Virus record (IMG/VR): IMGVR_UViG_3300044714_000074
Coordinates: 1-64,000 of that record
From: a virus
Reading direction: 5' to 3' (one strand)
DNA length: 64,000 bases
Under the pieces are notes generated by a model that did not search any database, had not been told where the DNA came from, and worked only from the letters and a program-made list of their open reading frames with translations. A program made the translations under genes and the position numbers. Shown in pieces: positions 61,348 to 64,000 of this stretch (within the stretch, counting starts at the first letter, position 1; every line of letters begins with the position of its first letter).

Positions 61348-61737
61348 CTATCCCCTCAGCTTCATCGGCACCGAGCTCGGCGGCGGCGTGTGGACGATCG
61401 GCGCCTTCTGGATGCCGTCGGCAAAGGCGGATTGAATACCCTTGCGGACAATCGCAAGCGTGTTGATGTCGGACGAGACCGAGCCGGCAAGCAGGTTTCC
61501 CATCTGCCACGCCACGATGTTGAGGATCATCGTCGGGTGAACTCCTGGGGAAGAGACTAGCGTGCCGCGGAGCATCATCCCGAAGGCTTGGCGGACGATG
61601 GGCCCGAGCGCGTTCGCTGCGGCCTGCGCCGCCGCCATCATCTCCGGCGTCGGCTGCGCGACGGCTCCGGGGTTCTTCTCCAGGTGCTTGAGGACTTCCG
61701 CGACCATGTTGGGGTCGGCGCCGTTGCCTTCGGTCAT
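61348..61737 (-). CDS. Hypothetical structural-region protein
   Basis: A 129-residue helical protein with an Ala/Gln-rich N-terminal half (PEMMAAAQAAANALGPIVRQ) and a proline-rich C-terminus. Located between terminase-associated and portal genes. No known family. Confidence 0.6.
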   Translation of the reverse strand: MTEGNGADPNMVAEVLKHLEKNPGAVAQPTPEMMAAAQAAANALGPIVRQAFGMMLRGTLVSSPGVHPTMILNIVAWQMGNLLAGSVSSDINTLAIVRKGIQSAFADGIQKAPIVHTPPPSSVPMKLRG

Positions 61738-61943
61738 TGCGTCCGCTCCCTCAACACACGATTAGCAGCCTTGATGGCATCAACCGCCCGCCACCGCAGC
61801 AGCCAGTCCGGCTCCCACCACCGCCGCTTGACGCCCCAGAGAATAGCGATCCGCGTCAACTCGTGGCCGCGCACCGGCTTCCGGCCGATCAAGGCCGTCA
61901 TCGTGTAGCTGCGGTCTGAGTTCCAGGTCGGGCTGAACGACAT
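61734..61943 (-). CDS. Small basic protein
   Basis: A 69-residue protein (MSFSPTWNSDRSYTMTALIG) with a Trp/Arg-rich centre (WGVKRRWWEPDWLLRWRAVD). Its ATG overlaps the TGA of the stranded terminase end (TGATG), so before the HNH insertion it directly followed the terminase gene. Confidence 0.6.
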   Translation of the reverse strand: MSFSPTWNSDRSYTMTALIGRKPVRGHELTRIAILWGVKRRWWEPDWLLRWRAVDAIKAANRVLRERTQ

Positions 61944-62000
61944 CAGAAGCCCTCCGCGTTGCCGAGCACCACGCTGTAATCACTTTCATCCAATACCAAG
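61943..62000 (-). pseudogene. Stranded native 3' end of the terminase gene
   Basis: The minus strand here reads LDESDYSVVLGNAEGF and stop. It matches the last residues of the current terminase (IIALGNNDGF and stop), with mostly third-position DNA differences and GC-rich codons like native genes. Its TGA overlaps the next ATG. It is the displaced original end, left behind by the HNH insertion. Confidence 0.6.
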
Positions 62001-62015
62001 ATACGCTATCTTTGG
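61996..62015. repeat. Hairpin at the edge of the HNH element
   Basis: CCAAGATA-CGC-TATCTTTGG, an eight-base stem with a one-base bulge, flanked by CAATAC on both sides. It lies between the stranded terminase end and the HNH start. It may be a boundary or regulatory hairpin of the element. Confidence 0.4.
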
Positions 62016-62037
62016 CAATACTCAAAGGGAGTTCTTT

Positions 62038-62709
62038 ATGGTTGCCAGATGCGCCGCTCGCGACGAAGCAAAAGCAAAGGGCGAGCTTTTTTACTTTACG
62101 GGAATCCCATGTCCCAAAGGACACTTAGCCCCTCGCTATACGAGCGTCTATAAATGCACTGAGTGTGCGAAAGACGAATTGAAGGCGAAAAGAGAACAAA
62201 CTGCGGCCCGCCGAGCAGCCCGCCCTTTATCGGTGCGCGAGCAGGCTAAGGCCGATGGAGCTACCCGATACTTTACCGGAAAGGCGTGTCCGCGCGGACA
62301 TTTTGCTGAGCGCGCCACAGTCAATGGAGTTTGCGTTGAATGCCAGCGCGAAGATCGCCTGCGTCGAAATGCAGATGATCCAATCGTTAGAAAAAAGCGC
62401 GCTCAATATCGCAAGAAAAACGCGGAACGGTATCGGTCACATGTCCGCAATCGTCGCGCCGCCGCCAAAGCTATTCCGGGATCGCACACTAAGGATGATA
62501 TTCTGACGATCTTGGAGGCACAAAATTATCGCTGTGCATATTGCCGTCGATCAATTCGAAGAACTCATCATGTCGACCACATCATTGCCTTATCGAAGGG
62601 CGGCACCAACTGGCCAAGCAATCTTCAGCTTACTTGTTCCGGCTGCAATCTCCGCAAATGGAATAAGGACCCTGTCGATTTTGCTCAAGAACTCGGGAAA
62701 TTACTTTAA
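62038..62709 (+). CDS. HNH homing endonuclease with two zinc fingers
   Basis: A 223-residue protein on the opposite strand to the whole late operon, with RBS AAAGGGAG. Two tandem C-P-x-GH...C-x2-C fingers (C25/H29/C40/C43 and C84/H88/C99/C102) precede a basic helix and the HNH core: RCAYC, HHVDHIIALSKGGTNWPSNL, CSGCN. AT-rich compared with its neighbours. Its TAA overlaps the terminase TAA by two bases. The element appears to have replaced the terminase 3' end. Confidence 0.88.
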   Translation: MVARCAARDEAKAKGELFYFTGIPCPKGHLAPRYTSVYKCTECAKDELKAKREQTAARRAARPLSVREQAKADGATRYFTGKACPRGHFAERATVNGVCVECQREDRLRRNADDPIVRKKRAQYRKKNAERYRSHVRNRRAAAKAIPGSHTKDDILTILEAQNYRCAYCRRSIRRTHHVDHIIALSKGGTNWPSNLQLTCSGCNLRKWNKDPVDFAQELGKLL

Positions 62710-64000
62710 AAGCCGTCGTTATTTCCAAGAGCGATTATAGCCGCGTAAAGTGCGCAGTCTAAAAGATCATCTTCGCGTTTGGCTGCTTCCTTGTCGCCGA
62801 TTCGGAAGCCAACCAACTGGCCGAGCAAATGATTACGAGCCGTTTCTTTATAGGTTGTGGTCTTGTCGTAGGCTGGCCGGGCCATCTTAACCATTCCGCG
62901 GTAAAAATAGCCACTCACAGACAATGCCCGCTCATCCTTGCCCATGGCGGTCAGCTTCGATTCGATGGCATGCGCCGGCCAGCCGCGTCGAATAGATTGC
63001 TGGATCAAGACCATGCCGGAGTTCTTGTCCTCGATAAAAGCCCCTAGCGAACCCGTGCGCGCCTTGCAGGTGCGCGCCAGATGCTCGAGATGTTGGAAGA
63101 CGGTCGGCAGCCAGGTCTCGAGCAGCGCGCCTTCGATCTGGCGGATGTCCCAATCGAGGATGACGAGGTTGTGGGCTGGACCGACTGTGCCATCGGCGTT
63201 CACCGGCCGGATCGGATTGCGGACCACGGCGCAATAGATGACCGCGGTCCCGTCGTGCTCTTTGCCGGTCTTCGTGGCGGTGTCGATGACTGCGAAGACA
63301 CCTTCGCATCGAACAGGCAACTCCAATGGCTCACCATTGACCAGCAAGCTATCCCGAGTGAAAAAAGCGGCCCCTGAAAAATCGACGAAGTCAGCAAGGA
63401 ACTCCTGCTGATAAACCAGTGGCGGCGTGTTTTTCAGGAGATCGACGAAATAGGCTTCGCGCCTGAGCTGCCATTGTTCCAGAGTTTCGCCGGCGTTGCG
63501 CAGCGGGATCAGTGGATTGCTCATCGTCGGCGCGTGAAAATCAATGAAGCCGAACCGCGATATTTTTTCCCCTCGATCCTCATAGGGACAGATCGCGCGC
63601 ATCGGATTGTCGGGCTCGATGCCGTTCGTGTTCGACATAATGATCGCGGAGCCATCGTAATCCAACAGCGTGGGTTCGATCGAGCGCTGCCAAGTATCAA
63701 TGGCCTGCGGCTTTGCGAAGCCGAACTCGTCGATGATCACTCGGTGATACTTGCGTGACCGCCCGGCGTTCTCGTCCTCCAGTGACCAGAACTCGACCTT
63801 CCCGCCGGTGATCGATTCGATGATGCCTTCGGTTTTCGAGGACCGCTTCTTTGCCGCCTCGATCTGCTCGGCGATGACGTTGTAGGATTCGGAGAGCCGT
63901 TTGTGCTCCGGCGCGAACCAGCCGACCAGGCGCCCCTTGCAGGCGTCGGAGACCGCGATCGATTCGCCGAAAACGTTCTTACCCCACCTTCTTCCGCAGC
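62706..64000 (-). CDS. terL: Terminase large subunit, 5' end beyond the window
   Basis: The partial product begins at the window edge inside Walker A (CGRRWGKN). It continues through FAPEHKRLSESYNVIAEQIE, SLEDENAG and Walker B VIIDEFG to the nuclease half: IDTATKTGKEHDGTAVIYC, EDKNSG and REDDLLDCALYAAI. This ATPase-nuclease packages DNA through the portal. The last codons are AT-richer than the rest and appear to come from the HNH element. The internal GTG at 63740 is not the real start. Confidence 0.9.
   Translation of the reverse strand, partial: CGRRWGKNVFGESIAVSDACKGRLVGWFAPEHKRLSESYNVIAEQIEAAKKRSSKTEGIIESITGGKVEFWSLEDENAGRSRKYHRVIIDEFGFAKPQAIDTWQRSIEPTLLDYDGSAIIMSNTNGIEPDNPMRAICPYEDRGEKISRFGFIDFHAPTMSNPLIPLRNAGETLEQWQLRREAYFVDLLKNTPPLVYQQEFLADFVDFSGAAFFTRDSLLVNGEPLELPVRCEGVFAVIDTATKTGKEHDGTAVIYCAVVRNPIRPVNADGTVGPAHNLVILDWDIRQIEGALLETWLPTVFQHLEHLARTCKARTGSLGAFIEDKNSGMVLIQQSIRRGWPAHAIESKLTAMGKDERALSVSGYFYRGMVKMARPAYDKTTTYKETARNHLLGQLVGFRIGDKEAAKREDDLLDCALYAAIIALGNNDGF

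Follow-up and report, generated by a model that had tools for sequence, protein, structure and literature searches.

The closest described systems come from fungal mitochondria, where mobile ORFs (Allomyces atp6; Glomus/Rhizophagus atp6, atp9, cox2 and nad3) bring substitute C-termini to the genes they enter (PMC3630166). There an endonuclease gene has entered the 3' portion of an essential gene, the inserted C-terminus makes a functional hybrid, and the native C-terminus is displaced downstream. It is the native copy that most resembles the C-termini of relatives, and the two ends differ largely by silent changes (PMC3630166). In T-even phages the free-standing seg/mob endonucleases, of HNH or GIY-YIG type and without intron or intein, spread via cleavage and co-conversion of flanking sequence; mobE in nrdA and mobA in the topoisomerase gene split the host gene into two polypeptides, and no substitute gene end is described for these elements (PMC2988022). 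In engineered HomeR drives an essential gene receives a nuclease within its 3' coding part, along with a re-coded 3' end that rescues its function (PMC7968924). Gene 60 of phage T4 contains a 50-nt insert that ribosomes tolerate by bypassing, and which may protect the gene from the neighbouring homing endonuclease MobA (PMC5009743).

The locus described here lies in a stretch of 64,000 nucleotides of viral DNA (IMG/VR record IMGVR_UViG_3300044714_000074, positions 1 to 64,000), called the window below. It is probably a mobile HNH homing-endonuclease cassette that sits within the 3' coding part of the terminase large subunit gene, rebuilds the end of that gene and displaces the native one. Sequence comparison demonstrates how the locus is arranged, that relatives have such inserts at the same site, that the 3' end has been replaced (in near-isogenic pairs) and that the displaced tail is the native one. 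As in the fungal mobile ORFs, the endonuclease gene occupies the 3' part of an essential gene, the displaced end is the one closest to relatives, and the inserted end makes what, judged from sequence alone, should be a functional hybrid. The fungal elements are mitochondrial and of LAGLIDADG or GIY-YIG type, whereas the present one belongs to a dsDNA phage, carries an antisense HNH gene and sits in a terminase; unlike in the fungal case, its displaced end also holds the ribosome-binding site of the next gene. By analogy the fungal mobile ORF is the closest known kind, with the same working principle, but membership in it is not claimed, because the cassette is found in a virus record and has an HNH enzyme. 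With the T-even endonucleases the locus shares a phage-borne enzyme without intron or intein, but not the splitting of the host gene or the lack of a substitute end. The HomeR constructs are synthetic and CRISPR-based, whereas here the cassette is natural and the tails have diverged by descent. In the literature searched, which lay mostly outside subscription journals, no description of a doubled-end arrangement in phages was found. If the proposed reading holds, a substitute end lets an endonuclease gene with neither intron nor intein settle inside the coding region of an essential phage gene. The home-and-rescue logic known from engineering would then exist naturally, with occupied and empty alleles in near-isogenic phages, and the ends of terminase genes, which are in wide use as phage markers, could be foreign in origin.

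Terminase and HNH endonuclease genes

The terminase of the window matches the phrog_2 terminase large subunit (E 4.9e-16), relatives are 68-74% identical to it, and its AF2 model matches solved terminases, RNase H-type nuclease domains included. The body of the gene occupies 62769..63998 on the minus strand, with the N-terminus beyond the window. It is followed by a replacement end, predicted to be element-derived (DLLDCALYAAIIALGNNDGF-stop, 62706..62768, minus strand, GC3 0.40 vs 0.73 in the body), which starts at the DDLLD motif. This motif opens the last helix of the model (411-424) and, as in the family generally, would carry a catalytic aspartate. The frame closes with DDLLDCALYAAIIALGNNDGF-TAA at 62706, the last residues being IALGNNDGF. 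On the plus strand a convergent gene of 223 aa (62038..62709) encodes the HNH endonuclease, and the two stops overlap by 4 nt, which agrees with the original prediction that the terminase ends in these residues beside the HNH gene.

The HNH protein matches Pfam HNH (E 6.5e-12) and phrog_1035 endonuclease VII (E 9.3e-33), its motif is intact (HVDH...GGxNxxxNLQ...CNxxK), and there are two N-terminal CPxGH...CxxC repeats. Its nearest homologs in named phages, those of Synechococcus and Rhizobium, are about 35-41% identical; they were rejected as examples of the same arrangement, being co-directional with their neighbours and outside terminase ends. A shorter relative, 47% identical over its C-terminal half (L087, G004:C1:5446-5799), is carried elsewhere in the genome of a related phage (L022) whose terminase is uninterrupted. 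A group I intron or intein was likewise dismissed, as the terminase frame has its own stop before the HNH gene and the HNH gene is antisense; no Rfam match to an intron-like RNA was found at the locus. The leader of the HNH gene (61982..62037, plus strand) reaches from the displaced tail to the HNH start and has an AGGGAG ribosome-binding site ahead of the ATG. No promoter is predicted for it on the plus strand, where one is presumed to lie. At 61996-62015 the leader contains a near-perfect inverted repeat, CCAAGATA-CGC-TATCTTTGG, which may be an operator or may be due to chance.

Many phages have an HNH gene beside the terminase, and the enzyme could be thought of as a cofactor in DNA packaging that works together with the terminase, in the manner of HK97 gp74, and is retained beside it for that function. 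Phage FoX2, with a co-directional HNH gene between its terminase genes, would fit such a role, and for the same reasons of orientation and position it was rejected as an instance of the arrangement seen here. A cofactor is very improbable for the window, where the HNH gene is antisense; it is absent or decayed in most close relatives, and deleted copies (L034/L042) or a mere scar (L003) are met in otherwise intact terminase loci.

Displaced and current terminase ends

Beyond the HNH start the minus strand reads GTG GTG CTC GGC AAC GCG GAG GGC TTC TGA (61943-61972), that is VVLGNAEGF-stop; it is preceded by the codons for DYS, with which the displaced native terminase end, the best native-tail match in the window, starts at 61981 (61943..61981, minus strand). 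As had been proposed, this is a second terminase end whose TGA overlaps the next ATG. The ATG belongs to a small basic gene of 69 aa (61734..61943, minus strand, an ORF), the native neighbour of the displaced tail, whose GGAGG ribosome-binding site sits inside that tail. Pfam and phrog profile searches gave no family match for the basic gene and it has no relatives in viral_contigs, which is why the empty site of this phage itself was not found. No HNH-less relative ending in IIALGNNDGF directly before the basic gene was found, the latter being without relatives in viral_contigs, and no other gene family that explains the displaced segment was encountered.

The compositional part of the original prediction is borne out. 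The displaced VVLGNAEGF codons have 70% GC and GC3 1.0, and are GC-rich like the phage (terminase body 58% and 0.73), and the current IALGNNDGF codons, with 44% GC and GC3 0.44, are shifted towards AT like the HNH gene (52% and 0.475). The two 27-nt ends match at 15/27 nt.

A resemblance by chance, or one due only to a ribosome-binding site, would mean that the segment is no displaced terminase end at all. The GGAGG that it holds is indeed selected in its own right; the match, however, also covers the LGN codons upstream of the Shine-Dalgarno sequence. With a 30-nt weight matrix built from the ends of seven uninterrupted relatives, both strands of the 64-kb window were scanned: the displaced tail ranked first (34.8 bits), the terminase's own end second (27.1 bits) and the third-best site reached 15.5 bits, the best among 200 shuffled windows being 18.7. 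In a downstream scan for a second tail at 41 terminase loci, significant tails (z 7-10) were obtained in the window (z 10.3), L034, L064, L001 and L003, and the other 36 loci gave none at significance. Taken together with the near-isogenic pairs described below, in one of which the displaced tail equals the native one within flanks of 99% identity (L147 and L141), these scores make a fortuitous match extremely improbable for the window, and the pairs refute it for the whole class of loci.

Inserts at the same site in related phages

Uninterrupted relatives (L022, L030, L039 and others) have a single terminase end, ALGNAEGF-TGATG. HNH homologs occur at the same site and in the same orientation in L064, L088 and L089, and internally deleted in L034/L042, although the terminases that host them are only 43-65% identical. 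The L064 protein (222 aa) is 59% identical to that of the window, those of L088 and L089 55% and 42%, and the 4-nt stop overlap recurs in the window, L064 and L088. Behind the HNH genes the second tails read IDHFAYGAALALGDSEGF-stop in L064 and IDHFAYGVAAVAFGNAEGF-stop in L034, and in more decayed form LNVYSLAIALGSSTVF-stop in L089 and LDRSKYRQGGF-stop in L088, the last two being too degraded for significance of their own in the downstream scan. In L003 two tails flank a 55-nt scar that still encodes the end of the HNH protein (ELGRLL-stop vs ELGKLL-stop). L034 and L039 share the next gene (MWTT...), which stands behind the displaced tail in the former and directly behind the terminase in the latter; 140/180 positions are identical in the shared next-gene region, and since the 30-nt tails score 22/30 for both ends and do not discriminate, this pair gives shared gene order only.

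GIY-YIG genes or remnants are found directly behind the terminase, in sense orientation, in L147 (5258-5932), L065 (from 5250), L136 (from 5227) and L152 (from 3149). A second, GIY-YIG-associated insertion that regenerates a gene end had also been expected in the same genome as the window, and none was detected: the 73-kb record gave no hit with Pfam GIY-YIG or with the L147 protein, a weak test given that the L147 and L065 proteins themselves barely match Pfam. The predicted replacement of terminase C-terminal codons on insertion finds support in the same-site HNH homologs (L034/L042, L064, L088, L089) and in two near-isogenic pairs, and the second case in the same genome is not supported.

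Between the two terminase ends of L143 and L118 there are small ORFs (57 and 25 aa) without a recognisable nuclease, and a doubled tail therefore needs no nuclease in the present insert. These ORFs may be cargo or remnants of earlier elements. A scan for identity to the own tail cannot by itself establish the doubling in L118, L143 and L147, since the best second tail of each scores close to the shuffle maximum; in L143 and L147 the doubling is supported by flank comparison, and in L118 it is suggestive. Such nuclease-free inserts with the same doubled tail, together with the Shine-Dalgarno sequence of the next gene in the retained tail, would be expected from ordinary mosaicism, in which illegitimate or microhomology recombination put the terminase end and next gene of a neighbour phage before the resident end, with the nuclease as a passenger and selection discarding any product that lacked a complete terminase or an intact ribosome-binding site for the next gene. 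This explanation is rather unlikely. The HNH family, its orientation and the 4-nt stop overlap (window, L064, L088) recur among strongly diverged terminases, GIY-YIG genes or remnants have come to the same site as well (L147, L065, L136), and an insert or scar in about half of the rows of the window's 22-row terminase clade suggests targeting. Judged by the sequences, the site is a recurrent insertion hot spot across the terminase clade for two endonuclease families and small ORFs. As with free-standing homing endonucleases, the insert is sporadic, its site is fixed and relatives have uninterrupted alleles; as in the fungal mobile ORFs, the gene end is doubled and its native copy lies displaced beyond the endonuclease gene.

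Junctions in near-isogenic pairs

The terminase bodies are 96.3% identical between L141, which has one tail and lacks an insert, and L147, which carries a GIY-YIG gene. In the last ~150 nt of the terminase the value drops to 57-77%, and the displaced tail of L147 with its downstream region agrees with the native tail and next gene of L141 at 1488/1500 positions. The GIY-YIG frame of L147 continues straight into the displaced tail (HARNTGVAIALGNAEGF-stop). L138 (HNH; same contig as L064) and L143 (57-aa ORF) are 99.7% identical in the body, 43-77% over the last ~120 nt and 99.3% (894/900) from the displaced tail onward. One site in nearly the same phage thus holds two different inserts, and each comes with a terminase end of its own. 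Both pairs show flanking sequence co-converted at the insertion, and for the window composition suggests the same.

Composition and relationships of the tails agree with this. GC3 of the last 20 codons is 0.3-0.5 in the window, L034, L064, L003 and L065, with bodies mostly at 0.75-0.94, and 0.55-0.95 in most uninterrupted relatives, L004 (0.40) being an exception; the AT shift was measured at some of the insert loci only. The body of L138 is nearest to L143 (99%) and its tail to L034 (82%; both with HNH). The replacement tail of the window is nearest, though weakly (71%), to that of HNH-bearing L034, its nearest bodies being L003 and L001. The tails group by element rather than by terminase body. 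In L034 both tails contain AFGN and in L064 both contain GD, which hints at gene conversion between tails.

Proposed mechanism and age of the insertion

The cassette would combine the antisense HNH gene with a terminase C-terminus that has diverged and shifted towards AT, and would be inserted at, or just past, the codons of the conserved DDLLD nuclease motif. As it would bring its own copy of the C-terminus, a complete terminase would be rebuilt, and the native 3' end, now cut off, would remain downstream, where it provides the next gene with its ribosome-binding leader. The HNH enzyme would cut uninterrupted terminase genes near the insertion site, and the cassette would then be copied from an occupied donor during repair. 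Crossing over would take place within the terminase body on the left and within the tail on the right, which would make the displaced tail the right homology arm as well. This role as an arm, and the GGAGG site that it provides for the next gene, are the probable reasons why the displaced tail has been kept. The diverged copy of the terminase end would protect the carrier from its own enzyme, and the near-isogenic occupied and empty alleles make this proposed protection by recoding directly testable.

HNH and terminase identities run in parallel (0.59/0.65, 0.55/0.54, 0.42/0.43), so much of the HNH distribution could go back to one old insertion followed by losses; as the values track each other, these distances were discarded as proof of transfer. 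The parallel, together with the scars and internal deletions in L003, L034 and L136, would suit an HNH cassette that was inserted once, long ago, and has since passed on by vertical descent, being lost many times and moving little in recent times. That the whole history was of this kind is unlikely, given that L138 (HNH) and L143 (other insert and tail) differ so little in their bodies, that the frameshift-type tails discussed below cluster across three terminase clades, and that a tree of 49 terminase bodies implies eight changes between the insert and single-tail states, at least five of them forced by well-supported branches. For the HNH class an old insertion with many losses, alongside recent exchange at the site, is a possible history.

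Frameshift-type tails in relatives

A TGA closes the terminase frame at DD-L-L-TGA in L001, L118 (with near-copies), L142, L143 and L147, and the tail is encoded in the +1 frame. The break lies between the terminase codons for DDLL and DC, in L118 at 2940-2960. The sequence there, CTT TGA C, is the motif of the bacterial RF2 frameshift and is located at the insertion motif DDLLD, so that in terL it looks like a programmed frameshift of RF2 type. It is invariant across the five diverged lineages while the adjoining leucine codon varies, which makes a sequencing error unlikely. In comparison to T4 gene 60, where 50 nt are bypassed (PMC5009743), the shift in these relatives would be by +1; the window terminase does not have the frameshift motif. 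Four of the five tails of this type have the remaining four as their nearest neighbours, and in L001 the nearest three belong to the type; the bodies that carry them fall into three clades. More tentatively, and with some doubt, the site may be viewed as a battleground of natural home-and-rescue cassettes, HNH in antisense and GIY-YIG in sense orientation, with cleavage-resistant ends, one tail lineage of which would evade cutting by means of the +1 frameshift at the target motif, much as the bypass of T4 may do against MobA.
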